The translations under genes and the position numbers were made by a program. From NCBI GenBank assembly GCA_014763765.1, contig JACXUT010000007.1, forward strand, positions 1-40,646: 40,646 nucleotides of DNA. The letters are read 5' to 3'. The DNA comes from Micrococcales bacterium (GTDB lineage: Bacteria > Actinomycetota > Actinomycetes > Actinomycetales > Cellulomonadaceae). This document shows, piece after piece, positions 5,563 to 40,114 of this stretch. Each line of letters starts with the position of its first letter. The first letter of the stretch is position 1. The notes under the pieces were generated by a model. The model did no database searches. It had not been told where the DNA came from and was given only the letters and a program-made list of their open reading frames with translations.

Positions 5563-5584
5563 GCCGCGCGTCGGCGGGCGCCCC

Positions 5585-6229
5585 TCAGCCGCGCCCGGTG
5601 CCGACGACGGGCTCCTGCGGCTGCACGACGGCCGCGACCAGCGCCTCGATCGCGAACTCGCTGGTCCGCGCCAGCTCCACGTCGTCGCGGGCCAGCAGCC
5701 ACTGCACCTGGAGCCCGTCCATGACCGCGAGGATGGCGGCGGCGGCACGGCCGACCGTGCCGGGCTCGGTCACGCCGCGCTCGGCGCAGACCTCCCGGAA
5801 CGCGTCGGCGATCTCGGCGCGCAGCGTGCGGTAGCGCTCCTCGAAGTACGCGCGCGCGGGGTGGTCGTCGGTCACGGACTCGGCGGACAGCACCGCGTAG
5901 GCCTGGACGATGCCCGGCCGCTCCTCGTTGGCGAACGCGGTCCGCACGAGGTGGCGGAACAGCTCGATGCCGCCGGGGATGTGCTGCTCGGCGAGCCCCT
6001 CGACGTCGGACTGGTCGCGGAAGCGCAGCACCTCGACGAGGAGCTGGTCCTTGGACCCGAAGTGGTGGAGGATCCCCGCGTGCGTCATGCCGACCTGCTC
6101 GGCGATCTCCGTGAGCGGGCCGTTGTTGTAGCCCTTGCTGCCGAACGTCGTCATGGCGGCGGTCAGGATGCGCCGCCGGCGCTCCAGGGTCTCCGGGCGC
6201 GGCCGGACGGGCCGCTTCGCCGAGCTCAT
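5585..6229 (-). CDS. TetR-family transcriptional regulator
   Basis: A 214-residue TetR-type repressor. The N-terminal helix-turn-helix lies at about 38-60 (LTEIAEQVGMTHAGILHHFG); the rest is an all-helical ligand and dimerisation domain with no recognisable ligand signature. ATG 6229 has a GAGGAAG ribosome binding site upstream. It is divergent from the ABC-GH3 operon, and a TetR-like palindrome at 6358-6375 lies between them, so it probably controls that operon and perhaps itself. TetR control of a glycoside uptake locus is less usual than LacI control, which leaves the inducer open. Confidence 0.93.
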   Translation of the reverse strand: MSSAKRPVRPRPETLERRRRILTAAMTTFGSKGYNNGPLTEIAEQVGMTHAGILHHFGSKDQLLVEVLRFRDQSDVEGLAEQHIPGGIELFRHLVRTAFANEERPGIVQAYAVLSAESVTDDHPARAYFEERYRTLRAEIADAFREVCAERGVTEPGTVGRAAAAILAVMDGLQVQWLLARDDVELARTSEFAIEALVAAVVQPQEPVVGTGRG

Positions 6230-6357
6230 GGCTGTCTCACTTCCTCTGCCGCCGCGCCCGCCGGCGTGGTCGCGCGCCGATCGTAGCGGCCGGGGCTGCT
6301 GCCGACCGGGACCCGCCTGCCGTGACCAACTCGTGATCTCCGGGGCCTGGCGGACAC

Positions 6358-6375
6358 TTACTGACAGTGTAGTAA
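6358..6375. promoter_or_regulatory. Candidate TetR operator TTACTGACAGTGTAGTAA
   Basis: An 18-base imperfect palindrome with outer arms TTACT/AGTAA and an inner ACTGACAGT, in the TetR/SBP divergent spacer. It is AT-rich against its surroundings and similar in layout to known TetR-family operators. It lies 82 bases before the SBP start, where a bound repressor could block transcription. Confidence 0.65.
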
Positions 6376-6456
6376 CGTTCCGCGCAGCACGACCGCGAGG
6401 ACGCGGCGTGACCTCAGACGCCGGCTGCGTCCCGGCGCCGTTTCGAAGGAGAAACC

Positions 6457-8127
6457 ATGAGGGTGAAGTACCCGGCGGTCGCGCTCGGCGTGGCCGCCGC
6501 CCTGGCACTGACGGCCTGCTCCGGCGGGTCGGGCGGGGCGGGCGACGAGGGCAGCAGCACCGGCGGCACCGGGGCCCCGCTGACCATCGCCAAGCCGGAC
6601 GGCGCCATCGCCACCGAGTCGAACAACCCGTGGGTCGGCGACGCCTCGGGCATGAAGCTCGGCTACATCAACGCGATCCTGGAGCCGCTGGGGTTCGTCA
6701 ACCTCATCGACCCCAGCGACGACGTCACGCCGTGGCTCGCCCAGGAGATCACCTGGAACGACGACTACACCGCGGTCACGCTCGTGGCCCGCGACGGCGT
6801 CACCTGGAACGACGGCGAGGACTTCACCGCCGACGACATCGCGTACACGTTCACGCTGCTCAAGGACAAGCCGGAGCTCGACAACGCGGCGCTCGGCATC
6901 GAGGACGTCGCGCTCGACGGGGACACCGTCACGATCTCCTTCGCCGCGTCGATGTTCGCCAAGCAGGACAAGGTCCTGCACAAGCTCATCGTCCCGAAGC
7001 ACATCTGGGAGGACGTCGCCGACCCGGCCACGGACCCGAACCTCGAGCCCGTCGGCACCGGCCCCTACGTGCTGTCGCAGTTCTCCTCGCAGAGCGTCGA
7101 GCTCACCGCGCGGGACGACTACTGGGGCGGGGAGCTCGCCGCGCCGACGCTCTACTACGTGTCGTACAACGACAACACCGCGCTCACCACGGCGCTGGCC
7201 AACGGCGAGGCCGACTGGGCGCAGGCGTTCATCCCCAACGTGCAGTCCGCGTACCTCGACAAGGACGACGCGAACGTCTACTGGGCGGCCGCGGGCCTCG
7301 GCATCGACGCGATGTTCGTCAACACGCAGACCAAGCCGTTCAGCGACGTCGCGTTCCGCCAGGCGATGAACCTCGTCGTCGACCGCACCAAGCACCAGGC
7401 GATCGCGCGGGAGGGCGGCGTGCCGGAGCTCACCTCGGTGACCGGCCTGCCCACCCCCGCGGGCGACCCGTTCATCGCCGACGACTTCGCCGGCGAGACG
7501 TACGGCGTCGACGTCGACGGCGCCAAGGAGATCCTCACGGACGCCGGCTACACCTGGGACGGCGACGCCCTCGTCGACCCCGACGGCGAGCCCGTCACGT
7601 TCGAGCTGAGCGTCCCGCAGGGCTGGAGCGACTACGTCACCGGCATCTCGCTGATCGCCGACTCGGCCAAGGAGCTGGGCGTCGAGGCCACGGTCGACAC
7701 CCCGGACGCCGACACCTGGTGGGCCATGAAGAGCGAGGGCGACTTCCAGGCGATCCTGCACTGGACCGACACCGGCGCCACGCCGTACGACCTGTACAGC
7801 GACATCATGGACGGCCGGTGGCTGAAGCCGCTCGGCGAGGCCGCGGACTACAACTTCGGGCGGTTCGACAGCCCGGAGGCCACGGCCGCGCTCGACACCT
7901 ACGCCACCGCGACGGACGACGCCGCGCGCGCCGAGGCCCTGGCGGAGGTCCAGGAGATCTTCGTCGAGCAGGTGCCCGCGCTGCCGATCGGCACCCGCCC
8001 GTTCATCGGCGAGTACAACACGCGCAGCTACGTCGGCTGGCCGGGCGAGGACGACCCGTACGCCAACCCCGACCCGACGCAGCCCACCGCCGCGCTGATC
8101 CTCACCAGCCTGGAGCCGGCGAGCTGA
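6457..8127 (+). CDS. ABC transporter substrate-binding lipoprotein, family 5
   Basis: Extracellular solute-binding lipoprotein of 556 residues, the size usual for the oligopeptide/dipeptide type (SBP family 5). The signal peptide ends in the lipobox LTAC, giving lipidated Cys21. A low-complexity Gly/Ser linker follows, then the two-lobed domain with family features such as WNDGEDFTADDIAYTF and PVGTGPYVL. An AAGGAG-type site precedes ATG 6457. It is the first gene of an operon that ends with a cytoplasmic GH3 enzyme. Some family 5 binding proteins carry beta-linked oligosaccharides instead of peptides, so a glycoside ligand is inferred from context; binding residues cannot be read here. Confidence 0.9.
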   Translation: MRVKYPAVALGVAAALALTACSGGSGGAGDEGSSTGGTGAPLTIAKPDGAIATESNNPWVGDASGMKLGYINAILEPLGFVNLIDPSDDVTPWLAQEITWNDDYTAVTLVARDGVTWNDGEDFTADDIAYTFTLLKDKPELDNAALGIEDVALDGDTVTISFAASMFAKQDKVLHKLIVPKHIWEDVADPATDPNLEPVGTGPYVLSQFSSQSVELTARDDYWGGELAAPTLYYVSYNDNTALTTALANGEADWAQAFIPNVQSAYLDKDDANVYWAAAGLGIDAMFVNTQTKPFSDVAFRQAMNLVVDRTKHQAIAREGGVPELTSVTGLPTPAGDPFIADDFAGETYGVDVDGAKEILTDAGYTWDGDALVDPDGEPVTFELSVPQGWSDYVTGISLIADSAKELGVEATVDTPDADTWWAMKSEGDFQAILHWTDTGATPYDLYSDIMDGRWLKPLGEAADYNFGRFDSPEATAALDTYATATDDAARAEALAEVQEIFVEQVPALPIGTRPFIGEYNTRSYVGWPGEDDPYANPDPTQPTAALILTSLEPAS

Positions 8128-8133
8128 CGCGCC

Positions 8134-8185
8134 GCTGCGGCCGGCCGGCGACGGGACCTCGTCCCCGCCGCCGGCCGGCCGCAGC
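8134..8185 (+). other. Intra-operon stem-loop between SBP and ATPase genes
   Basis: A perfect 17-bp stem (8134-8150 with 8169-8185) encloses a smaller 5-bp hairpin, GGGAC/GTCCC. No T-tract follows. Placed just after the binding-protein gene, it could stabilise the upstream message or stop part of transcription, giving more binding protein than transporter, as is common in ABC operons. Confidence 0.75.
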
Positions 8186-8237
8186 CGTGCCGGGCAGACG
8201 GGCGGGCCACGGGTCCGCGGGAAGACGGGAAGGTGCA

Positions 8238-9091
8238 GTGACGACGACCAACGACGTGCTGACGGTGTCGGACTTCAGCGTCGTGTACGACGTGGACCCG
8301 CCGGTGGAGGCGGTCCGGGAGGTCTCGCTCAGCGTCCGCCGGGGCGAGATCCTCGGCCTCGCGGGCGAGTCCGGGTGCGGCAAGACCACGCTGGCGTACG
8401 GCGTGCAGCGCCTGCTCAAGGCGCCCGCGGTGATCGCGGGCGGCTCGGCGACGTTCCACGACGCCTCCGGGGCGGACATCGACCTCGGGGCGCTCAGCGA
8501 CGCCGAGATGCGGGCGTTCCGGTGGGACAAGGCCTCGATGGTGTTCCAGGGCGCGATGAACGCGCTCAACCCCGTCGTGGCGATCGGCAAGCAGCTCGAC
8601 GACGTGTTCCGCACCCACCGGCCCGCGATGCCGAAGGCCGAGCGCCGGCGCGAGTGCGGCGACCTGCTCGACATGGTCGGCGTCGGCCGCGAGCGGCTGC
8701 GGTCCTTCCCGCACGAGCTCTCCGGCGGCATGCGCCAGCGCGTCATGATCGCGATGGCGCTCGCCCTGCGGCCGCAGCTCATGATCATGGACGAGCCGAC
8801 CACCGCCCTCGACGTGCTCGTGCAGCGCGAGATCCTGCAGCAGATCTCGGACCTGCGCCGCGAGCTCGGGTTCTCGGTCGTGTTCATCACGCACGACCTG
8901 CCGCTGCTGCTCGAGATCAGCGACCGGATCGCCGTCATGCGCGAGGGCCGCATCGTCGAGCTCGACACCGCCGAGAACATCTACCGCCACGCGCAGCACC
9001 CCTACACGCAGCGGCTGCTCGGGTCGTTCCCGAGCCTGACCGGCGAGCGCGGGGACTTCGTGCGGACGGGCAGCGCCGAGGAGGCCGCACG

Positions 9092-29821: not shown

Positions 29822-30772
29822 TCAGCGGCGCACGAGGTTGCGCAGCGGCTCGTCCCGGACGAACGCCGCGATGTTGTCGGTGAGCAGGGTGTCCGCGCCG
29901 ACCGGCCGGCCGCCGGCGGCGTGCGGCGTGATGAGGATGCGGGGCTCGTCCCACAGCGGTGACGACGCGGGCAGCGGCTCGGTCTCGAAGACGTCGAGCG
30001 CGGCCCCGGCGAGGCGCCCCTCCCGGACGGCGGTCAGCAGGGCCTCCTCGTCGAGCGTGGACCCGCGGCCCACGTTCACCACCCAGGCGTGCCGGGGCAG
30101 GCGCCCGAGCACCCGCGCGTCGAGCACCCGGCGGGTGGCGGGCGTCGAGGGCAGGATGCCGATGAGCACGTCCGTGCCGGGCAGCGCCTCGTGCACCTCG
30201 GCCGCGGTGATCACCGGGTAGCCCGCCCGGGTCCCCGCCGTCGACGCGACCCCGACGACCTGGGCGCCCAGGACGGTCAGCAGCGGTGCCAGCCGGGTCG
30301 CGATGGACCCGAAGCCCCACACGAGCACCCGTGCGCCCGCGAGCGAGCGGAAGTCCCCGCCCTCGTGCGGGAGGCGCTGGACGCCGCCGAGCTCGGCGGC
30401 CCACCGGTGCTCGTCCTGCGCGCGCACCAGCTCCGGCAGCCGGCGTGCGACCGCGAGCACCAGGGCCAGCGTGTGCTCGGCGACCGGCCCGTCGTGCAGG
30501 CCGCGCCCCGAGGTCACCCGGACGTGCGGCGCGAACCCGGCGGACAGCACGGAGTCGGGGCCGGCGGCCAGCGTCTGCACCCAGCGCAGCCGTCCCATGC
30601 GGCGGGCGGCGTCCGCGAGCTGGTCGGTCGGGTTCCCCCACGCCACGAGGGCGTCGGCGTCCAGCAGCGCGTCGGGCAGCGGCTCCCGCACGTCGTACGC
30701 GGCGGTGCGCACGCCGTCCGGCAGCGTGGGGGAGAGCGCGATCGAGGAGGGCAGCAGGACGGTGGTCGTCAT
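29822..30772 (-). CDS. D-isomer-specific 2-hydroxyacid dehydrogenase
   Basis: NAD(P)-dependent dehydrogenase of 316 residues; substrate not readable. The nucleotide loop is VLVWGFGSIATRLAPLL, with GxGxxA. The catalytic Arg is in VNVGRGSTLDEEAL, the Glu in FETEPLP and the His in ITPHAAG, a complete triad. The N-terminal substrate domain is short and divergent, resembling the glyoxylate/phosphoglycerate-dehydrogenase-like subgroup. It is divergent from the response regulator gene and shares with it a spacer containing two perfect hairpins. Confidence 0.91.
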   Translation of the reverse strand: MTTTVLLPSSIALSPTLPDGVRTAAYDVREPLPDALLDADALVAWGNPTDQLADAARRMGRLRWVQTLAAGPDSVLSAGFAPHVRVTSGRGLHDGPVAEHTLALVLAVARRLPELVRAQDEHRWAAELGGVQRLPHEGGDFRSLAGARVLVWGFGSIATRLAPLLTVLGAQVVGVASTAGTRAGYPVITAAEVHEALPGTDVLIGILPSTPATRRVLDARVLGRLPRHAWVVNVGRGSTLDEEALLTAVREGRLAGAALDVFETEPLPASSPLWDEPRILITPHAAGGRPVGADTLLTDNIAAFVRDEPLRNLVRR

Positions 30773-30781
30773 GCGGGCAGG

Positions 30782-30800
30782 CTCCCGTACCGGACGGGAG
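30782..30800. repeat. Small hairpin CTCCCGT/ACGGGAG
   Basis: A perfect 7-bp stem with a five-base loop directly upstream of the dehydrogenase gene; its last base is the first base of the large repeat at 30800. Confidence 0.6.
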
Positions 30801-30856
30801 GGCGCCAGGCGACGCACCGGCGGGGCGTCGGAGCGCCGGTGCGTCGCCTGGCGCCC
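30800..30856. repeat. Perfect 23-bp inverted repeat upstream of the response regulator
   Basis: Bases 30800-30822 are the exact reverse complement of 30834-30856, with an 11-base loop. The right arm covers the expected -35 region of the response regulator gene, whose -10 is at 30866. It could be a regulator binding site, or a terminator against transcription entering from either side. Confidence 0.9.
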
Positions 30857-30865
30857 GCGTGTCGT

Positions 30866-30871
30866 TACGAT
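30866..30871 (+). promoter_or_regulatory. -10 element TACGAT for the response regulator, probably leaderless
   Basis: TACGAT ends six bases before the GTG at 30878, with no ribosome binding site in between. Confidence 0.6.
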
Positions 30872-30877
30872 GCCATC

Positions 30878-31561
30878 GTGTCCGCCACGAACAGCGCAGT
30901 CCCGCCGGCCCGCACCGGGCCGATCTCGGTCATGATCGTCGACGACCACGAGGTCGTCCGGCGCGGCATCGCCGAGGTCGTCGAGCGAGCCGACGGCATG
31001 AAGGTCGTCGCCGAGGCGGGGTCGGTCGCCGACGGCGTCCGGCGCGCGGGCCTCGTGCACCCGGACGTGCTCCTGGTCGACCTCCAGCTCCCCGACGGCA
31101 CGGGCATCGACCTCATGACCCAGGTCAAGGTCACCCTGCCGACGGCGCGGGCGATCGTGCTCACGTCGTTCGACGACGACGACGCCCTGGCCGCGGCCCT
31201 GGACGCCGGGGCCGCCGCCTACCTCCTCAAGAGCGTGCGCGGTGCCGAGATCACGGACGTCATCCGTGCCGTCGCCGCGGGCCGGACGCTGCTGGACGAG
31301 CGGACGGTCACCCGGCGCCGGGCCGGGCACGAGGACCCGACCGAGAACCTCACGCCGAGCGAGCTGAAGGTGCTCGACCTCATCGGCGACGGCCTGTCGA
31401 ACCGGGAGATCGCCGAGCGCCTGGGCGTCGCGGAGAAGACGGTCAAGAACCACATCACGTCGCTGCTCGCCAAGATGGGCCTGCAGCGCCGCACGCAGGT
31501 CGCGGCCTGGGTGGCCGCGCGGCGTCACAGCGGGTGGCGCGCGGAGACCGGCCACTCCTGA
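30878..31561 (+). CDS. NarL/DevR-type response regulator
   Basis: Two-component response regulator of 227 residues. The receiver domain has the acidic pair in VDDHE, phospho-acceptor Asp68 in LVDLQLPDGTG, Thr/Ser in VLTSFDDDD and Lys in AYLLKSV. The LuxR-type helix-turn-helix lies at about 155-215 (LTPSELKVLDLIGDGLSNRE, then KTVKNHITSLLAKMG), close in wording to mycobacterial DevR/DosR. GTG 30878 is chosen from the close -10 and the start of homology. The gene faces the DevS-like kinase tail to tail with six bases between the stops, so the likely cognate pair is not co-transcribed. Confidence 0.92.
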   Translation: MSATNSAVPPARTGPISVMIVDDHEVVRRGIAEVVERADGMKVVAEAGSVADGVRRAGLVHPDVLLVDLQLPDGTGIDLMTQVKVTLPTARAIVLTSFDDDDALAAALDAGAAAYLLKSVRGAEITDVIRAVAAGRTLLDERTVTRRRAGHEDPTENLTPSELKVLDLIGDGLSNREIAERLGVAEKTVKNHITSLLAKMGLQRRTQVAAWVAARRHSGWRAETGHS

Positions 31562-31567
31562 TCCGGC

Positions 31568-33364
31568 TCAGCCGAGCGGGACCTCCCACGACAGCAGCGT
31601 CCCCGTCCCCCCGGGCGCGACGCCGAGCGAGAACGTCCCGCCGTGCTGGCGCGCGCGGGCGGCGAGGTTGCCGGTGCCGGACCGGCGGTCCCGCGTCGCC
31701 GGCAGACCCGCGCCGTCGTCCTCCACCTCCACGCGCACCGCGCCCGTCGGGCCCGCGCCGCGCACCCCGATGCGCACGCTGACCGAGGACGCGTGGGCGT
31801 GCCGGGCGGCGTTCGCGAGCCCCTCGCGGACCACCGCCACGACGTCGTCCGTCCGGTCGGGACCGATGCGCTCGTCCACGAGGTCCGCGACGATGTAGTC
31901 GCCGTCCGGCACGGCCTCCCCGTCGAGCAGCACCACCAGCGAGGGCGCGAACCCCAGGCCCGTGCGCGCGAGCGACGCCTCGCGCCGCAGCCGCTCGACG
32001 ATGCCGGTCGCGGCGTCCGGGTCCCGCAGCGCGTACACGATCTGGCGGATCTGCCGCACGGAGGCGTCGACGTTGTCGAGGGCCTCCTCGACGATGCTCG
32101 TCAGCTCGGAGGGGTCGACGCCGCGGGATGACCGCCGCCGGACGGTCTCGAGCTGCATGCCCGTGGCGAAGAGCTGCTGGATCGCGAGGTCGTGCAGGTC
32201 GCGTGCGATGCGCTCCCGCTCGTCGAGCAGCGCGGCCTGGTCCTGGGCGTGGCGCGCCTCCGCGAGCACGAAGGCCAGGGCCGCCTGGGAGGCGAACGAC
32301 TCGGCCGTGGCGAGGTCGTTCGCGTCGAACGCGGGGGAGCCGATGCGGCGCAGCAGGATGAGCACCCCGACGCCGCGCCCCGAGGTCTGCAGCGGGGCGA
32401 ACAGGGCGGACCCGAACGACCGCATCGCGGGCACGGTGATGCGCCGCGACTTGGCGAGCGAGTCGATGACGAGCCCGGTGCCCTCCTGCATGACCGACCA
32501 GGTCGGCCCGCCGGGGGTGAGCTGGGCGCCGACCAGGGTCTCGGCGTTGTGCCCGTCCGCCAGCTCGATGAGCAGCTCGCCGCCGACGCCCGGCAGCGCC
32601 AGCGCGGCGGCGTCCGCGTCGGCGACGTCCCGCGCGGTCGCGGCGATGTGGGCGAGCGCCTCCTCCTCGTCCGCGCCGGACAGCAGCATCGTCGTGATGT
32701 CCTGGCCGGCGCGCAGCCAGTGCTCGCGGCGGGCCGCGTCCGCGTAGAGCTGGGCGTTGGAGACGGCCACGCCCGCGGTCGCGGCGAGCGCGATGACGGT
32801 GGTGGCGTCCTTGTCGGTGAACCCGCCGTCCTTCTCGGACAGGTACAGGTACCCGTACACCTGGTCGCGCACCCGGACGGACGCGCCGAGGAACGAGCCC
32901 ATCGGCGGGTGGCCGGCGGGCCACCCGCGGAACGCGGGGTGCTGCGTGAGGTCGTCGAGCTTGAGCACGCCCTGCGCGGGGATCCGGCCGAGCACGCCCT
33001 GCGCGTGCGGCGGGTGGCCCATGAGCGCCGCGGTCGCCGCGGGGACGCCGGTCTGGACGAACGTGGTCGACTCGCCGCGGGAGTCCAGCACGTTGATCGC
33101 GCCGTAGCGGGCGCCGGTCAGCTCCACGGACACCCGCACGAACCGCTCGAGCACCCCGGGCAGCTCCAGCCCGGACGCCACGGACAGGACCGCGTCGAGC
33201 AGGTCGGCGAGCTCGTCACCGGTCTCGGCGGCGGTGCCGAGCTCCAGGTGGGAGCGGCCACCGGGCTCGCGGACGTGGATCGTGGTCGTCACGCCCGGGC
33301 CGGACCCGGGCGCGCCGGCACCGGGACCGGGGGTGGTGTCCGGTGCCCTCAGGTGGTCCGCCAT
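31568..33364 (-). CDS. GAF-GAF sensor histidine kinase, DevS/DosS-like
   Basis: Soluble sensor kinase of 598 residues. GAF-A (about 66-207) contains GWPAGHPPMGSFLGA; His152 aligns by pattern with the haem-ligand His149 of mycobacterial DevS, so it may sense oxygen, nitric oxide or carbon monoxide, or redox state. GAF-B spans about 228-370. The HisKA_3 phospho-acceptor is His391 in RIARDLHDLAIQQLF, and the HATPase_c part has NAARHAHA and DDGAGLP. There is no membrane segment. Its ATG lies 16 bases inside the 3' end of cydC, so it is probably made from the cyd message. The likely partner is the convergent DevR-like regulator. Confidence 0.92.
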   Translation of the reverse strand: MADHLRAPDTTPGPGAGAPGSGPGVTTTIHVREPGGRSHLELGTAAETGDELADLLDAVLSVASGLELPGVLERFVRVSVELTGARYGAINVLDSRGESTTFVQTGVPAATAALMGHPPHAQGVLGRIPAQGVLKLDDLTQHPAFRGWPAGHPPMGSFLGASVRVRDQVYGYLYLSEKDGGFTDKDATTVIALAATAGVAVSNAQLYADAARREHWLRAGQDITTMLLSGADEEEALAHIAATARDVADADAAALALPGVGGELLIELADGHNAETLVGAQLTPGGPTWSVMQEGTGLVIDSLAKSRRITVPAMRSFGSALFAPLQTSGRGVGVLILLRRIGSPAFDANDLATAESFASQAALAFVLAEARHAQDQAALLDERERIARDLHDLAIQQLFATGMQLETVRRRSSRGVDPSELTSIVEEALDNVDASVRQIRQIVYALRDPDAATGIVERLRREASLARTGLGFAPSLVVLLDGEAVPDGDYIVADLVDERIGPDRTDDVVAVVREGLANAARHAHASSVSVRIGVRGAGPTGAVRVEVEDDGAGLPATRDRRSGTGNLAARARQHGGTFSLGVAPGGTGTLLSWEVPLG

Positions 33365-35310
33365 GTCTGTGCCCCACTGTCGTGCTGCTCGGTCGCGTGG
33401 GCCACACGGTAGTCGGCGTCCGTGTCCAGCAGGTGCGCGTGCGTCCCGCGCGCCGCGACCCGGCCGTCCCGGAGGACGACGACCTCGTCCGCGGCACCCA
33501 GGGGCGCGAGCCGGTGCGTGACGACCAGCACGCCGCGACCGCCGCCGGCCGTGCGCGGCGTGCCGAGCAGGTCGCCGACCAGCCGGTCCGCCGTCACGGG
33601 ATCGAGGTGCTCCGCGGGCTCGTCCACGAGCAGCAGCGGGGCGGTCGCCAGCAGGGAGCGGGCCAGCAGGAGCCGGCGCCGCTCGCCGCCGGAGACGCTG
33701 CGCGCGTCGGGCCCCAGCGCGGTGTCGACGCCGTCCGGCAGGCCCGCGAGCCAGTCGCCGAGCCCGGCCCGCTCCAGCGCCGCGACGGCGTCCTGCGCGG
33801 TGGCGTCCCCGCGGGCGACGCGCAGGTTCTCCAGCACGGTGGTCTCGAAGACGTGGGCGTCCTCGGTGGTGAGCGCCAGGCGCGAGAGCCGCAGGGCCGG
33901 GTCGACGGCGGCCAGCGGCACCCCGTCGAGCAGGAGCTCGCCGCCGCGGACCGGCAGCATCCCGGCGAGCGTCAGCAGCAGCGTCGTCTTGCCGACGCCG
34001 GACGGCCCGACCACGGCGACGCTGCGCCCGGGGGCCAGGTCGAGGTCCAGACCGGTCACCACCGGCTCCCGCCCGGGCCAGCCGACGGCGAGGCCGCGCG
34101 CGGCGAGGTGGGGGCCGCCGGCGGAGGGCGACGCGGAGCGGGGGGACGCCGCCACCGGCGCCGGAGCGGCACCCGCCCCGTCCGCGGCGGGATCCGGCTG
34201 CGCCGCGTCGTCCAGCAGCGCGACGAGCCGCTGCGCGGCCGCCCGCGAGCGGTGCACCTGGATCGCGGCCGCCGGGAGCACGCTCGTCGCCTCGAACGCG
34301 GCGAGCGGGGTGAGGACCACCACCGCGAGCTCCACGGGGGCGAGCGTCCCCGCCGTCACGGCCGGCACGCCGACCAGCAGGGCGGCGACGACGGCGAGCC
34401 CGACGGCGAGCGTGCCGAGGGCGGCGGCGAGCGCCGCGGGACCGGCGCCGGAGTCCGTGGCCGCCGCGAGGTCGGCGTCGGCGGCGCGGAGCCGGGACAG
34501 CTCGGCACCGGTGCGGCCCTGGACGGCGAGCGGCCCGGCGTCCTCGAGCAGACCCAGGGCGGTGGCGGCCATCTCGGCCCGGGCCGCGGCGGCGCGCTGC
34601 TCGGTGGTCCGGGCGGCGCGCTGGGCCAGCCAGGGGGCGACGACGCCCGCGAGGAGGAGGCACACGGCGAGCGTGAGGCCTGCGGCCGGGAGGAGCAGGC
34701 CCATCGCGACGACCGTCCCGAGGCCCAGGACCGCCGCGACGGCGGCCGGCAGGAGCCCCCGGACGACGACGTCGCCCACGGCGTCGACGTCCGCGCCCAC
34801 CCGGGCGAGCAGGTCGCCGCGACGCAGGCCCAGGGTGGCCTCCGCGCGCCCCTCCGCGAGGCGGCGGTAGAGCGTCGTCCGCAGCCGGCTCATGCCGCGC
34901 AGCGCGACGTCGTGCGACACCAGCCGCTCGAGGTAGCGGAACAGGCCGCGGCCGATGCCGAAGGCGCGCACCGCCACCGTGGCGACCGAGAGCTCGAGCA
35001 CCGGCGGCATCTGCGCGGCGCGCGTGATGAGCCAGGCGGACACCGCGGCGAGCGCGACCGCCGACCCGAGCGCCGCCACCCCGAGCAGCACCGCGAGCGC
35101 GGCGCGCCGGGGGTTCACGTCCAGCAGCCGCACGGCGCGCCACAGCGGGTCGCCGGCGAGGCGGGGCTGGAGCCCGCGCGGGCGGCGGTCCGGGCCGGAG
35201 TCAGCAGACGCGGCACCGATGGGCGCGTCACCGATGGGCGCGGCGCCCGGGGGGCGCGCGGCCGGGAGGCGGCCTGCCGCTGCTCCCGGAGGCGTCGGCG
35301 AGGTGCTCAT
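33349..35310 (-). CDS. cydC: Thiol reductant ABC exporter subunit CydC
   Basis: Half of the CydDC exporter, which sends glutathione/cysteine-type reductants or haem-related compounds across the membrane and is needed to assemble cytochrome bd. 653 residues: six membrane helices, then an ATPase domain with GPSGVGKTT, VSGGERRRLLLARSLL and LLLVDEPAEHLDP. The first 50 residues are a Pro/Ala-rich extension not usual for CydC, containing the repeat APIGDAPIGA, which comes from a 15-base tandem duplication. The ATG overlaps the cydD stop by four bases, and the 3' end overlaps the kinase gene by 16 bases. Confidence 0.92.
   Translation of the reverse strand: MSTSPTPPGAAAGRLPAARPPGAAPIGDAPIGAASADSGPDRRPRGLQPRLAGDPLWRAVRLLDVNPRRAALAVLLGVAALGSAVALAAVSAWLITRAAQMPPVLELSVATVAVRAFGIGRGLFRYLERLVSHDVALRGMSRLRTTLYRRLAEGRAEATLGLRRGDLLARVGADVDAVGDVVVRGLLPAAVAAVLGLGTVVAMGLLLPAAGLTLAVCLLLAGVVAPWLAQRAARTTEQRAAAARAEMAATALGLLEDAGPLAVQGRTGAELSRLRAADADLAAATDSGAGPAALAAALGTLAVGLAVVAALLVGVPAVTAGTLAPVELAVVVLTPLAAFEATSVLPAAAIQVHRSRAAAQRLVALLDDAAQPDPAADGAGAAPAPVAASPRSASPSAGGPHLAARGLAVGWPGREPVVTGLDLDLAPGRSVAVVGPSGVGKTTLLLTLAGMLPVRGGELLLDGVPLAAVDPALRLSRLALTTEDAHVFETTVLENLRVARGDATAQDAVAALERAGLGDWLAGLPDGVDTALGPDARSVSGGERRRLLLARSLLATAPLLLVDEPAEHLDPVTADRLVGDLLGTPRTAGGGRGVLVVTHRLAPLGAADEVVVLRDGRVAARGTHAHLLDTDADYRVAHATEQHDSGAQTWRTT
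35214..35242. repeat. 15-bp tandem duplication within cydC
   Basis: CACCGATGGGCGCG occurs at 35214-35227 and again at 35229-35242, a period of 15. It adds five residues in frame to the disordered N-terminus of CydC. Confidence 0.85.
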
Positions 35311-37085
35311 CGCGCGCCCTCCGCCCGTCCGGAGGCTCCGGTGCCGCCTGCCGCGACGCCGCCGCCCGCGACCCCGGCGCCCGCGACGACGCCGTCAGGG
35401 GCGGACGCGGGAAGCGGCGCGGACCGCACGGTCACGACCTCGTCGGCGAGCGCGACCAGCGACGGCCGGTGCGCCACCAGCACCACGGTCCGGTTCGCGG
35501 CGCGCAGGGCGCGGACCGTGTCGAGGACCACCTGCTCCCCGGCGGCGTCGAGGTGCGCCGTCGGCTCGTCCAGGACGACGAGCGGCGCCTCGGACAGCAG
35601 CGCCCGGGTGAGCGCCACCCGCTGCCGCTGCCCGACGGACAGCCCCGCCCCGCCCCGTCCGAGCTCCGTGCGCCACCCGTCCGGCAGGCCCGCGACGACG
35701 GCGTCGAGCCCCGTCAGGGCGGCAGCCCGGTCGCGGTCCGCGCGGGCGGCGGGCGTGAGCTCCGCGTCCTCGGCGCCGGCGACGAGGCGGCCCACCGAGC
35801 CGGGCTCCAGGACGGGCCGCTGGGGGAGCCAGGCGACCTGCCGCCAGTAGGTCTGCGGGTCGAGGTCTGCGAGCGGCGTCGCGCGGCCGTCGGGGTCGAC
35901 CACCTCCACCGCGCCCCGGTCGGGACGCAGGAGGCCGAGCAGCAGGTCCACGGTGGTCGACTTGCCGGCGCCGCTCGGGCCGGTCACGGCGACGGTGCGC
36001 CCCGGGGCGACGGTCAGGTCCAGCCCGGCGGGCGCGAGCAGGTCGCGTCCGGGTGCCCGCACGCTCACGTCCCGGAGGCGCACCGCGGCGGCGCGCAGGT
36101 CCGGAGCGGGCTGCTCGCCACGCCCGGGGGCGGGCGTCTCGAGCACGGCGAAGACCTGGTCGGCGGCGGCGACGCCGTCCGTGGACGCGTGGAACTGCGC
36201 CCCGACCTGCCGCAGGGGCAGGTAGACCTCGGGAGCGAGCACGAGGACGGCCAGACCTGTCTCGAGGTCGAGCTGGCCGTAGACGAGCCGCAGGCCGATG
36301 CCCACGGCGATCAGCGCGACGGACAGGGTGGTGAGCAGCTCCAGCACCATGCCGGACAGGAACGCGATCCGCAGGGTGCCCATCGTGGCGCGGCGGTGCG
36401 CGTCGCCCAGCGCCTGCACGCGGGCCGCCGGGCCGCGCTCGCGCCCGAAGGCACGCAGCGTGGTCAGGCCCGCGACCAGGTCGAGCACCTGCGACCCGAG
36501 GCGCTGCATCACGCGCAGCCCGCGGTCGGAGCGCCCCTGCGTCAGCTGGCCGATCAGCACCATGAAGATCGGGATCAGCGGCAGCGTGCCGGCGGCGATC
36601 GCGGCGGAGACCCAGTCGAGCCCGAGGATCACCACGAGCGTCGCCGGGGTGACGGTCGCGGAGAGCACGAGCTGGGGGAGGTACCGCACGAAGTACGGCT
36701 CGAGCGCCTCGAGCCCGCGGGTGGCGAGGGTGACGACGCGCGCGCCCTCACCCTCCGCCAGCCACCGCGGGCCGAGCTCGGCGGCCCGCGCGACGACCTG
36801 CTCGCGCAGCTCCGCGACGGCCCGGGTCGCCGCGCGGTGCGCGAAGCGCTCCTGCACGGCCGTCACGACCGTGCGCGCCGCGACGACGGCCGCCAGCCAC
36901 CCGACCCGCGGGAGCAGGTCGGGCAGGCCGGCGCCGTCGTGCGCGGCCGCCGCGAGCACCTGCGCCAGCAGCACCGCCTGGGCGATGACGAGCCCTGCCG
37001 TGACGATCCCCAGGGAGGCCGTCAGGGCCAGGTACCCCCGGGCGGCACGGGCGTGGCGGAGCAGGCGCGGGTCGAGCGGCTTCAC
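35307..37085 (-). CDS. cydD: Thiol reductant ABC exporter subunit CydD
   Basis: Partner of CydC; 592 residues. The membrane domain of six helices is followed by an ATPase with Walker A GPSGAGKST (369-377), signature LSVGQRQR (GG replaced by VG) and Walker B LVVLDEPTAHLDA. CydDC is needed for a functional cytochrome bd oxidase, and it follows cydB by 15 bases in the order ABDC, as in many actinobacteria. The C-terminal 40 residues are Gly/Ala-rich and probably disordered. Confidence 0.93.
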   Translation of the reverse strand: MKPLDPRLLRHARAARGYLALTASLGIVTAGLVIAQAVLLAQVLAAAAHDGAGLPDLLPRVGWLAAVVAARTVVTAVQERFAHRAATRAVAELREQVVARAAELGPRWLAEGEGARVVTLATRGLEALEPYFVRYLPQLVLSATVTPATLVVILGLDWVSAAIAAGTLPLIPIFMVLIGQLTQGRSDRGLRVMQRLGSQVLDLVAGLTTLRAFGRERGPAARVQALGDAHRRATMGTLRIAFLSGMVLELLTTLSVALIAVGIGLRLVYGQLDLETGLAVLVLAPEVYLPLRQVGAQFHASTDGVAAADQVFAVLETPAPGRGEQPAPDLRAAAVRLRDVSVRAPGRDLLAPAGLDLTVAPGRTVAVTGPSGAGKSTTVDLLLGLLRPDRGAVEVVDPDGRATPLADLDPQTYWRQVAWLPQRPVLEPGSVGRLVAGAEDAELTPAARADRDRAAALTGLDAVVAGLPDGWRTELGRGGAGLSVGQRQRVALTRALLSEAPLVVLDEPTAHLDAAGEQVVLDTVRALRAANRTVVLVAHRPSLVALADEVVTVRSAPLPASAPDGVVAGAGVAGGGVAAGGTGASGRAEGAR

Positions 37086-37100
37086 GCGGCTGGGCGGTCC

Positions 37101-38183
37101 TCAGGCCCGGGTCGAGCCGTCGGGGGAGGTGCCGCCGTGACCGGTGCCGGCACCGACCTTCGACGTCACCTCGGCGAACGTCAGCCCGGTGTGCTCCGGG
37201 ATGTGGTCCGTCGAGATCCGCTTGCGGAACACCCAGTACGTCCAGCCCTGGTAGAGCAGCACGATCGGGGTGAGGATCACGGCGACCCACGTCATGACGG
37301 TGAGCGTGTAGTGCGTGGACGACGCGTTGTCGACGGTCAGCGAGTTCGCCGGGTCGAACGCCGGCATCACGTCCGGGTACATCGACCCGAAGATCAGCAC
37401 GACGGCCGCGACGATCGCCACGGCGGAGGCGATGAACGCCCAGCCCTCGCGCCGCGCGCGGGTCGTCAGGACCAGGGCCACGAGCGCGCCGGCCGCGACG
37501 ACGACCGCCGCCCACGTCCAGGCCACCGAGTAGGCGAGCTGCGCCCACACGGCCCAGCCGCCCGCGACCACGAGGGTGACGACCGAGAGCCGGGCGGCCA
37601 CCGCGCCGGCCCGCTCGCGGATGTCGCCGGAGGTCTTGAGCGCCAGGAACACGGCGCCGTGCGTGAGGAAGATCAGCAGCGTCGTGGCGCCGCCCAGCAG
37701 GGCGAACGGGTTCAGGAGCGCGAAGAACCCGCCGACGTACTGGTGGTTCGCGTCGAGCTCGACGCCGCGCACCAGGTTGCCGAACGCCACGCCCCACAGC
37801 AGGGCCGGGACGTAGGAGCCGATGATGATGCCGCGGTCGGACCACGCCCGCCACGCGTCCGTGTTGATCTTCCCGCGCCACTCGAACGCCACGATCCGCA
37901 TGATCAGCGCGAGCAGGATCAGTAGCAGGGCGAGGTAGAACCCGGAGAACATCGTGGCGTACCACTCGGGGAACGCCGCGAACGTCGCGCCGCCGGCGGT
38001 GAGCAGCCACACCTCGTTGCCGTCCCAGACCGGGCCGATCGTGTTGATCATCACCCGGCGGTCCTTGTCCTTGCGGCCGAGGAACGGCAGCAGCATGCCG
38101 ACGCCGAAGTCGAACCCCTCGAGGACCAGGTAACCGGTCCACAGGACGGCGATGAGCAGGAACCAGAGAGTCGAGAGCTCCAT
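37101..38183 (-). CDS. cydB: Cytochrome bd ubiquinol/menaquinol oxidase subunit II
   Basis: Membrane subunit of cytochrome bd, the high-affinity terminal oxidase; 360 residues with about nine helices. The N-terminal block GYLVLEGFDFGVGMLLPF and the WDGNEVWLL motif are diagnostic. CydB lies 21 bases after cydA. The C-terminal tail of about 25 residues is polar. The ATG is preceded by GGGACTGA, a weak ribosome binding site. Confidence 0.95.
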   Translation of the reverse strand: MELSTLWFLLIAVLWTGYLVLEGFDFGVGMLLPFLGRKDKDRRVMINTIGPVWDGNEVWLLTAGGATFAAFPEWYATMFSGFYLALLLILLALIMRIVAFEWRGKINTDAWRAWSDRGIIIGSYVPALLWGVAFGNLVRGVELDANHQYVGGFFALLNPFALLGGATTLLIFLTHGAVFLALKTSGDIRERAGAVAARLSVVTLVVAGGWAVWAQLAYSVAWTWAAVVVAAGALVALVLTTRARREGWAFIASAVAIVAAVVLIFGSMYPDVMPAFDPANSLTVDNASSTHYTLTVMTWVAVILTPIVLLYQGWTYWVFRKRISTDHIPEHTGLTFAEVTSKVGAGTGHGGTSPDGSTRA

Positions 38184-38204
38184 GTCGGTCAGTCCCTCCG
38201 TCCG

Positions 38205-39686
38205 TCAGTAGGCGAACGACAGCGGGCGGTCCGCGGCGTCCGGGGAGTTGTCGGGCTTGTTGTCCGGGTTGTCGGGGCTGACGTCCTTCTCGGTGTCCGC
38301 GACGCCCTCGACGGCGTAGCGCTTCATGAGCTTGAACCAGACCACGGCGAGCGCCCCGTACAGCAGGGTGAACGCGGCCATCGAGATGACCACCGTGGTG
38401 GGGGAGACCACCTCGGAGACGCCGCGCTGCGTGAGCAGCCAGACGCCGTCGACGCCCGTCGGGTTCGGGTAGACGACCCAGGGCTGGCGGCCCATCTCGG
38501 TGAAGATCCACCCGAACGCGGACGCGAGGAACGGGGTCGGGATCGCGATGAGCGCGATGCGGGCGAGCCACGTGTTGTCCGAGACCCGGCCCTTGCGGGT
38601 GAGCCACAGCGCCGACAGCGCGAGCGCGACGGAGCCGAGCGCGAAGCCGATCATGAGGCGGAACGACCAGTACGTCACCGTGAGGTCGGGGATGTAGTTC
38701 ACGCCCTCGCCGAACTGCTCCTCGTACCGCGCCTGGAGGTCGTCCACGCCCTCGATCGTCGAGTTGAAGTCGTTGTTCGCGAGGAACGACAGCAGGCCCG
38801 GGATCTGCAGGTAGTGCGTGACGCCCTCGCAGTTGTTGGTGAGGTCGCCCACCGCGAACAGCGAGAACGCCGCGCCGTCCTCGGTGACGCACACGGCCTC
38901 GGCCGCCGCCATCTTGGTGGGCTGCTGCTCGAACATGAGCTGGCCCTGAGCGTGGCCGGTGATCGCGAGGCCGACGCCCGAGATGAGCATGGTCACGACG
39001 CCGAGCATCACGGCCGGGCGGTAGACGGTGCGCGCCTTCTCGGCGTGGCCCTGGCGCACCAGGCGCACCATCCACCAGGCGGCGATGCCGGCGACGAAGG
39101 TGCCCGCGGTGAGGAACGCCGCGGTGATGGTGTGCGGGAAGGCCGCGAGCAGCGTGTTGTTGGTGAGGACGGCCCCGATGTCGTTCATCTCGGCGCGCCC
39201 GGTCTCGGTGTTGAAGATCGCGCCCACGGGGTGCTGCATCCACGAGTTGGCCGCGAGGATGAAGTAGGCCGACAGGTTCGTCGCGATCGCGACCGCCCAG
39301 ATGCACGCCAGGTGGATCTTCTTGGGGAGCTTGTCCCAGCCGAAGATCCACAGGCCGAGGAACGTGGACTCCACGAAGAAGGCGGCGAGGGCCTCCATGG
39401 CGAGCGGCGCGCCGAACACGTCGCCGACGAAGCGGGAGTACTCGGACCAGTTCATCCCGAACTGGAACTCCTGCACGATGCCCGTCGCCACGCCGATGGC
39501 GAAGTTGATGAGCAGGAGCTTGCCGAAGAACTTGGTCAGGCGCAGCCAGGCCTCGTTGCCGGTGCGCACCCAGATGGTCTGCATGATCGCGACGAGCGGC
39601 GCGAGCCCGATCGTCAGCGGGACGAAGATGAAGTGGTAGACGGTGGTGACACCGAACTGCCAGCGAGCCAGATCGAGGGCTTCCAT
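38205..39686 (-). CDS. cydA: Cytochrome bd oxidase subunit I
   Basis: Catalytic subunit that oxidises menaquinol and reduces oxygen to water. 493 residues. Haem ligands match E. coli: His18 (His19), His185 (His186) and Met345 (Met393); Glu99 and Glu106 match the proton-path acids. GRQPW (399-403) is the conserved quinol-site block. The Q-loop is the short type and holds Cys266 and Cys286, placed like the disulfide pair reported for the mycobacterial enzyme. The tail carries PDN repeats. ATG 39686 gives the expected N-terminus. It begins the cydABDC-kinase operon. Confidence 0.96.
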   Translation of the reverse strand: MEALDLARWQFGVTTVYHFIFVPLTIGLAPLVAIMQTIWVRTGNEAWLRLTKFFGKLLLINFAIGVATGIVQEFQFGMNWSEYSRFVGDVFGAPLAMEALAAFFVESTFLGLWIFGWDKLPKKIHLACIWAVAIATNLSAYFILAANSWMQHPVGAIFNTETGRAEMNDIGAVLTNNTLLAAFPHTITAAFLTAGTFVAGIAAWWMVRLVRQGHAEKARTVYRPAVMLGVVTMLISGVGLAITGHAQGQLMFEQQPTKMAAAEAVCVTEDGAAFSLFAVGDLTNNCEGVTHYLQIPGLLSFLANNDFNSTIEGVDDLQARYEEQFGEGVNYIPDLTVTYWSFRLMIGFALGSVALALSALWLTRKGRVSDNTWLARIALIAIPTPFLASAFGWIFTEMGRQPWVVYPNPTGVDGVWLLTQRGVSEVVSPTTVVISMAAFTLLYGALAVVWFKLMKRYAVEGVADTEKDVSPDNPDNKPDNSPDAADRPLSFAY

Positions 39687-39757
39687 GGGCGATCCGTCCA
39701 GGAGCAGGTGCGAGTGGGGGGCCGTACGGCCTAGGTGCCGGCCGCTCTCCGAAGGTA

Positions 39758-39775
39758 TTGCGCGCGGCTTCACAA
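39758..39775. promoter_or_regulatory. Degenerate Rex-like half site
   Basis: TTGCGCGCGGCTTCACAA has a complete right half TTCACAA of the Rex consensus TTGTGAA-N4-TTCACAA and a poor left half. It lies 72-89 bases before cydA. Confidence 0.35.
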
Positions 39776-39817
39776 GGGTAGGACGAAGGTCCCGCGATCT
39801 GACGCCGCGTCGTCTCA

Positions 39818-39835
39818 TCGTGACGCGCTTCACGA
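39818..39835. promoter_or_regulatory. Candidate Rex or CRP/GlxR operator for cydA
   Basis: TCGTGACGCGCTTCACGA has perfect six-base arms TCGTGA/TCACGA six bases apart. It fits CRP-type GTGA-N6-TCAC exactly and Rex TTGTGAA-N4-TTCACAA at 11 of 14 positions. A second palindrome, TCACGAGCGTGA (39830-39841), overlaps it. Confidence 0.6.
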
Positions 39836-40114
39836 GCGTGATCTAGGGCACTGTGCGATACTGACGGCGGACTCCCGGGATCCACACACCCCGGGCGCCC
39901 ACCGTGCTCGCCGCACCAGCGCATCGCGCTCGCCAGGCGCCGCCGGCCGCGGACGGTCCACCCGGACTGCCGCGCCAGGCAGGCGATGGCGCCGAACGCC
40001 CGTGCAGCGGCCGACACCGACGACTTCCGTCGCCGCGGGGACGCGAGCGACGACCGACCGCCCGAGGGCGCCGCGCGTGTGGCCGGCGTACCCGGGCTTG
40101 CAGGAGCACCACGC

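Follow-up and report, generated by a model that had tools for sequence, protein, structure and literature searches.

What controls a cytochrome bd operon whose last gene codes for a sensor kinase? The question is raised by a contig of a Micrococcales bacterium of the family Cellulomonadaceae (assembly GCA_014763765.1, contig JACXUT010000007.1), all 40,646 nucleotides (nt) of which make up the window analyzed here. Five genes, cydA, cydB, cydD, cydC and a DevS/DosT-like sensor kinase, occupy positions 31568–39686 of the minus strand and are separated, in that order, by 21, 15, −4 and −16 nt. The gene order, the first three spacings and the kinase ATG lying 16 nt within cydC had been given in a first-pass annotation made from the sequence alone, and every number checked by coordinates and profile searches was correct. 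Two elements are added to that description: a convergent DevR-type response regulator at 30878–31561 and a DevR-like palindrome at 39780–39793, upstream of cydA. Kinase and regulator probably constitute one two-component system of the DevS/DosT–DevR kind that is dedicated to cytochrome bd. The best reading of the comparisons described below is that this system took over cytochrome bd from Rex, with the sensor encoded within its own target operon.

The kinase gene (31568–33364, minus strand) encodes 598 amino acids. Profile search divided the protein into two GAF domains (GAF-A, residues 68–201, and GAF-B, residues 232–364), a HisKA_3 domain (residues 382–450) that contains His391, and a HATPase domain (residues 506–596). 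GAF-A aligns with the DevS and DosT GAF-A structures 2w3d, 4ynr and 2vzw with E values of 1e-29 to 1e-30, and these profile and structure-sequence matches bear out the earlier assignment as a DevS-type GAF-GAF kinase. His152, the histidine of a GHPPM block that had been likened to the haem-ligand region of DevS, indeed aligns with the HPPM histidine of Mycobacterium tuberculosis DevS (also called DosS; His149) and DosT (His147). Tyr174, in an LYL motif, aligns with the distal Tyr171 of DevS. The two histidines are the reported proximal ligands and Tyr171 the gas-discriminating distal residue, while Glu87 of DevS and Gly85 of DosT are proposed to gate the haem channel (PMC4082495). At the channel position the window kinase has Asn91, which is neither Glu nor Gly. 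Because this residue already differs between DevS and DosT, it was taken as tuning rather than defining. The window kinase carries the sequence features that define the DevS/DosT kind, and a haem-type GAF-A is sound as a prediction.

Searches with the kinase, CydC and the regulator were carried out on 121 genomes of the family. Kinase orthologues, defined by an identity of 55% or more over a stretch reaching at minimum from GAF-B to the C-terminus, occur in 57 of them; 43 are two-GAF kinases, the window's included, and 14 are single-GAF kinases, one of which is split in two frames. The ligand His is present in 42 of the 43 two-GAF kinases, the Tyr in all 43 and the channel Asn in 42, the lone exception for both His and Asn being locus L102 from a genome of the same genus. 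In 36 more distant kinases, linked to cyd or not (30 outside the family and 6 unlinked inside it), His and Tyr are invariant and the channel residue is always Gly. A scan of named genomes was limited to its best 80 loci, several of which share contigs with other samples and hence are not independent; all 80 have His and Tyr, with Asn in 62, Gly in 10, Ala in 7 and Ser in 1 at the channel position. The second DevS-like kinase of the window genome, on contig C356, has Ala there. Selection on the haem pocket would be expected to conserve His and Tyr in this way, and Asn at the channel position appears to be derived in Cellulomonas and close genera.

The neighborhood is conserved as well. Of the 57 family genomes with the kinase gene, 53 have it directly after cydC, the exceptions being the four kinase-bearing genomes of group g6, and because it recurs to this extent the arrangement is beyond chance. 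In a survey of the cydC–kinase overlap, an ATG or GTG overlapping the cydC stop codon by 4 nt was available in 23 of 52 linked loci. The gene overlap in the window is consistent with a single cydABDC–kinase transcription unit; a promoter and terminator scan of 30500–40100 returned zero sites over the whole span and is uninformative on this point.

The regulator gene (30878–31561, plus strand) converges on the kinase gene, with the two stop codons 6 nt apart. As in DevR-type regulators, its product combines a receiver domain (PF00072), with Asp68 as the receiver aspartate, and a GerE domain (PF00196). The closest solved structure is that of M. tuberculosis DevR, or DosR (3c3w, E value 8e-49), and the recognition helix carries AEKTVKN, identical to DevR. 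Regulator orthologues, with at least 73% identity, occur in exactly the same 57 family genomes as the kinase, and a set check placed neither protein in the other 64, where regulators reach at most 50% identity among the matches listed. Kinase and regulator share a contig in 53 of the 57 genomes and are convergent in all 53; most genomes have no more than about 230 nt between the two genes, and the rest have 1.4–5 kb.

The palindrome before cydA was found in an alignment of ten close loci and was then scored as GGGAC-N4-GTCCC within 300 base pairs (bp) upstream of cydA. The candidate site in the window, GGGACCTTCGTCCT, lies on the minus strand, 107–94 bp upstream of the cydA ATG, and is close to the published DosR motifs, GGGACTTNNGNCCCT (stringent) and RRGNCYWNNGNMM (weak) (PMC6448022). 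A box scoring at least 9/10 is present in 9 of the 10 discovery loci, in 25 of 26 other two-GAF linked loci (L102 being the sole miss), in all 14 single-GAF linked loci and in all 6 scored loci of groups f27, f39 and f42. Outside the discovery set, the box accompanies kinase and regulator in 45 of 46 loci, and the kinase of the 46th is the one without the haem-ligand His. The same score is reached in 1.9% of 3,820 other 300-bp segments from these loci. The named set has the box in 54 of 58 loci and the remaining loci have it in 1 of 3. The conservation of the box suggests that the regulator may bind the GGGAC-N4-GTCCC palindrome before cydA. Locus L102, where the His is lost and the box scores 8/10, no better than shuffled sequence, was considered as a natural experiment and set aside; the pairing is only suggestive because the His-intact loci L070, L353, L403 and L408 also score 8. 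Autoregulation of the regulator was rejected, as the best box match upstream of its gene scores only 7/10. The single box-bearing locus among the remaining three, L209 (genome G147), has kinase and convergent regulator on the far side of cydAB, followed by cydA-cydB with a perfect box, an alternative linkage of the same parts.

Confinement of the linked kinase to one family was suggested at first, when three candidates were scored per genome; it was contradicted by a wider CydC search, by fetched loci and by the named-genome scan. For the wider search, kinase and CydC were sought in a sample of 345 genomes of the class, and positions were compared by eye among the matches listed. The loci taken from groups f27, f39, f42 and f25/g57 were picked because they are linked (12 of 14 in f25/g57), and their counts are neither a census nor a rate. 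Seven loci of f27, f39 and f42 have the same gene order, with a convergent regulator in all seven; in G180 (f27) and G358 (f39) the kinase and CydC lie on separate contigs. Group f25/g57 was called Streptomyces-like because its CydDC frames are fused and its Rex operator is identical to that of Streptomyces avermitilis cydA1 (PMC5355995); here the kinase follows fused cydDC in 13 of 14 fetched loci, and none has a regulator beside the kinase. Among the best 80 named loci, the kinase is linked to cydC in 72, has too little upstream contig in 5 and is unlinked in 3. A convergent regulator lies within 6 kb in 72, the flank is short in 6, and 2 are without one: in L379 the regulator runs in the other direction and L408 has none. 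The named loci include Cellulomonas hominis, C. pakistanensis, C. fimi, C. gelida, C. uda, Actinotalea and Sanguibacter hominis, and further Flavimobilis, Georgenia, Oceanitalea, Bowdeniella and Flaviflexus. The record that contains L408 is titled Tissierella sp. Marseille-P2918, an odd label for such a gene set; its kinase, 49% identical, follows cydC.

Control of cydABCD by Rex, with induction of cytochrome bd at low oxygen, has been reported for Streptomyces and Bacillus (PMC5355995). The Rex operator was sought upstream of cydA as TGTGAAN4TTCACA with at least 10 of 12 matches, a score reached in 0.24% of shuffled sequences. No such operator precedes the window cydA, where the best match is 9/12. 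It was found in 1 of 36 two-GAF linked loci, 0 of 14 single-GAF linked loci and 0 of 6 loci of f27, f39 and f42, that is, in 1 of 56 linked loci with a regulator, and in neither the four g6 loci nor the three remaining ones. In contrast, it precedes cydA in all 14 Streptomyces-like loci and in 17 of the 19 kinase-free loci of the family. Of the 57 genomes with the system, 43 have a clear Rex-type domain (PF06971), as do 58 of the 64 without it; a Rex-type domain is also present in the window genome. For a tree-based test, 109 loci that reach 301 bp or more ahead of cydA were used, excluding the window and supplemented by 14 named loci of other genera. Where kinase and regulator are present, the box occurs in 65 of 68 loci and the Rex operator in 1 of 68; the 41 loci without them have the box in 10 cases and the operator in 31. 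The module is larger than the first-pass annotation stated, comprising a two-component system and a promoter site that are conserved with cyd and apparently replace Rex.

These features suggest a self-controlling oxygen circuit in Cellulomonas and its relatives. Oxygen bound to a GAF-A haem, with His152 proximal and Tyr174 distal, would keep the kinase off, and a fall in oxygen or the binding of nitric oxide or carbon monoxide would release it. The kinase would then autophosphorylate at His391 and phosphorylate Asp68 of the regulator. The phosphorylated regulator would bind GGGACCTTCGTCCT upstream of cydA and raise transcription of cydABDC together with the terminal kinase gene. Feedback would be positive, since more oxidase consumes oxygen and the sensor stays on. 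From the likeness to the M. tuberculosis proteins we infer that the window system works in a DevSR-like manner. The feedback unit proposed in the first-pass annotation, with oxidase and sensor made together, stands as far as the DevS-like kinase, the conserved neighborhood and the ligand residues are concerned, and the loop between oxidase and sensor would close because a DevR-like box, absent from that annotation, is conserved before cydA. Haem as a general rule does not stand.

Several observations weigh against a dedicated DevS/DosT–DevR-kind system. Of 19 family loci without a linked kinase, 8 have a box scoring at least 9/10, 3 of them at the usual distance; the score is reached in none of 13 Streptomyces-like loci with a linked kinase and no adjacent regulator, nor in the one Streptomyces-like locus without a kinase. 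The kinase alone is thus no predictor of the box. The window box scores 9/10, and a match of this quality within 300 bp is not rare on its own (3 of 100 shuffles). In group g6, kinase and regulator lie apart from cyd, and the box is found at one of four cydA promoters. A second close kinase copy (54–60% identity) is located off cydC in 8 of the 57 genomes (G013, G047, G050, G053, G063, G099, G102 and G115), and the DevR-type pair on contig C356 could use the box too. On average, 3.9 of the 6 independent pairs on the CydA tree show a joint change of linkage and box, against 0.1 with opposite changes (median p 0.125), and the tree has only three changes of the Rex operator. Because the loci are related and the changes few, the exchange of Rex operator for box is a strong pattern on few events. 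Lastly, the same-genus L102 kinase is linked to cyd without its ligand His, and the 14 single-GAF family kinases have no GAF-A, yet linkage and box are kept in 14 of 14. Haem sensing is therefore not universal.

This last group of kinases bears on the likeliest alternative, in which the system controls cyd but responds, through GAF-B or the kinase core, to some other respiratory signal, such as the quinone pool or a metabolite, and GAF-A is a dispensable modulator. The boxes retained by all 14 single-GAF loci speak for it, as does the single change on the kinase tree that is enough to account for those kinases. A construct of M. smegmatis DosS consisting of GAF-B and the kinase, with no haem domain, was moreover reported to be active yet unresponsive to gas (PMC4082495). 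The near-invariance of His and Tyr in the two-GAF kinases of the family and in all 80 named loci argues the other way, and we regard a non-haem signal as rather unlikely.

The kinase and regulator might alternatively run a wider regulon, of the dormancy or ArcA-like type, with cyd as one target of many and the gene order kept for co-expression. The pattern GGGACNNNNGTCCY gives 93 strand-rows in the window genome and 12 with a reversed-pattern control. Twenty stretches were fetched: 18 with box sites, picked from the 93 rows mostly for an A/T center, the C356 paralogue contig and an extra C287 stretch. Several of the 18 chosen sites, which are not a full survey, fall inside genes or before nothing identified. 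Others precede respiratory and central-carbon genes, namely pyruvate kinase, acetate-CoA ligase, sdhC-sdhA, a pyridine-nucleotide oxidoreductase, a menaquinone reductase-like gene followed by nuoA-nuoB, fumarase/aspartase and glycerol-3-phosphate dehydrogenase. Conservation beyond cyd was checked in 30 genomes, 15 with and 15 without the regulator. The sdh box and the oxidoreductase box were each found in 4 of 15 genomes with the regulator vs. 2 of 15 without, and the menaquinone reductase box in 4 of 13 vs. 1 of 15. Pooled, the non-cyd boxes are weakly commoner with the regulator (12/43 vs. 5/45, p 0.06), whereas nearly every locus with a linked regulator has the cydA box. A wider respiratory regulon was accordingly kept as a lead only; an ArcA-like regulon of weakly conserved boxes is possible in the window genome, and a wider regulon as the explanation of the cyd linkage is unlikely. 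That an ordinary DevS/DevR pair came to lie beside cyd by chance, with no functional link, is highly improbable: convergent DevS-type pairs without cyd do exist (L208, L212, L213, L214, L216, L217 and L219), but linkage holds across genera in 53 of 57 genomes, the genes overlap, kinase and regulator co-occur exactly, the box is conserved and the Rex operator is missing.

The history of the dedicated system was addressed with a kinase tree built from GAF-B to the C-terminus, comprising 65 rows after 28 near-duplicates were left out and no full-length M. tuberculosis kinase. A branch with a support of 94% in the Shimodaira–Hasegawa-like approximate likelihood-ratio test sets all cyd-linked kinases apart from the sampled unlinked DevS-like kinases; the group also takes in the g6 rows and one long unlinked row (L218). 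Since the single-GAF kinases need one change only (support 99) and two-GAF kinases branch off earlier (support 83), GAF-A was most likely lost once. By analogy with the active but gas-blind M. smegmatis construct, the single-GAF kinases may be permanently active, or may take their signal through GAF-B. In a wide range of Micrococcales and relatives, control of cyd may have moved from Rex to a DevSR-type system with the sensor in its own target operon, the haem domain then being discarded in one lineage; we consider the chances of this full sequence of events to be even. If it is true, the loci form a natural series of one oxidase circuit: haem-sensing, haem-ligand-lost and haem-domain-lost.

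Other kinases of this type were noted in the same genomes. The second copies of G013, G047, G050, G053, G099, G102 and G115 are 54–59% identical and exist besides the cyd-linked one. In G063, a locus apart from cyd (L117, positions 5570–8933) carries tandem kinase copies, 67% and 60% identical, together with a single convergent regulator. G023, G049, G104 and others encode DevS-like kinases of opposite make-up to the single-GAF cyd-linked ones: their GAF-A is 46–49% identical to that of the window, and GAF-B has no match. The C356 pair of the window genome (L003, L242) is divergent and lies near genes that by eye resemble universal stress proteins.

Compared with known systems, the window kinase shares domain order and aligned His and Tyr residues with DevS and DosT, and the window regulator shares with DevR the AEKTVKN stretch of its recognition helix; a candidate box of the GGGAC-N4-GTCCC type is a further likeness (PMC4082495, PMC6448022). 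The window system differs from them in that the kinase gene is the last of the cyd operon, the regulator is convergent, and Asn replaces Glu87 or Gly85 in Cellulomonas and close genera. OsdKR of Streptomyces coelicolor is a described actinobacterial relative of DevSR, and SCO3948 was named as the kinase most like OsdK (PMC5069765). The main text of that paper contains no match for cyd or cytochrome (PMC5069765). A kinase of the OsdK/SCO3948 type follows fused cydDC in the Streptomyces-like genomes, which differ from the window in having no regulator beside the kinase, no box and a Rex operator throughout. SCO3948 itself is presumably located at the S. coelicolor cyd locus. Rex is a one-component NADH sensor and repressor, whereas the window system would reach the same end, cytochrome bd at low oxygen, with two components. 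The cioRAB operon of Chromobacterium violaceum likewise unites cytochrome bd genes with a regulator gene of their own, which however encodes a MarR-type repressor and not a two-component sensor (PMC11837568). Among the titles and abstract openings listed by searches of open-licence PMC literature, none describes a cyd-linked DevS-like kinase or the cydA box.

If the proposed circuit is correct, a high-affinity oxidase, its sensor for oxygen or nitric oxide and its regulator form one conserved module in easily handled bacteria, in which the control of respiratory-oxidase levels by a DevS-type kinase can be tested cleanly. It would also be a case in which a redox sensor (Rex) and a gas-type sensor have exchanged control of one operon, with natural variants (Asn91, His lost, GAF-A lost) for probing the role of GAF-B.

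The remaining genes of the operon, all on the minus strand, were assigned by profile search. They are cydA (38205–39686; cytochrome bd oxidase subunit I; PF01654, E value 1.4e-161, above cut-off), cydB (37101–38183; subunit II; PF02322, E value 1.1e-111, and TIGR00203, both above cut-off), and the ATP-binding cassette exporter subunits cydD (35307–37085; TIGR02857, 597 bits, cut-off 435) and cydC (33349–35310; TIGR02868, 583 bits, cut-off 329). Two further elements lie upstream of cydA. A palindrome like that of the cAMP receptor protein (GTGAN6TCAC), CGTGAAGCGCGTCACG, is located at 39819–39834, and L341 and the C. pakistanensis loci L067/L335 have similar ones; the cydAB genes of M. smegmatis have been reported to be under a cAMP receptor protein (PMC7739888). 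The element AGTATCGCACA, at 39852–39862 between cydA and the divergent gene, is conserved in the ten close aligned loci and present in others, and is perhaps the promoter of the gene divergent from cydA.

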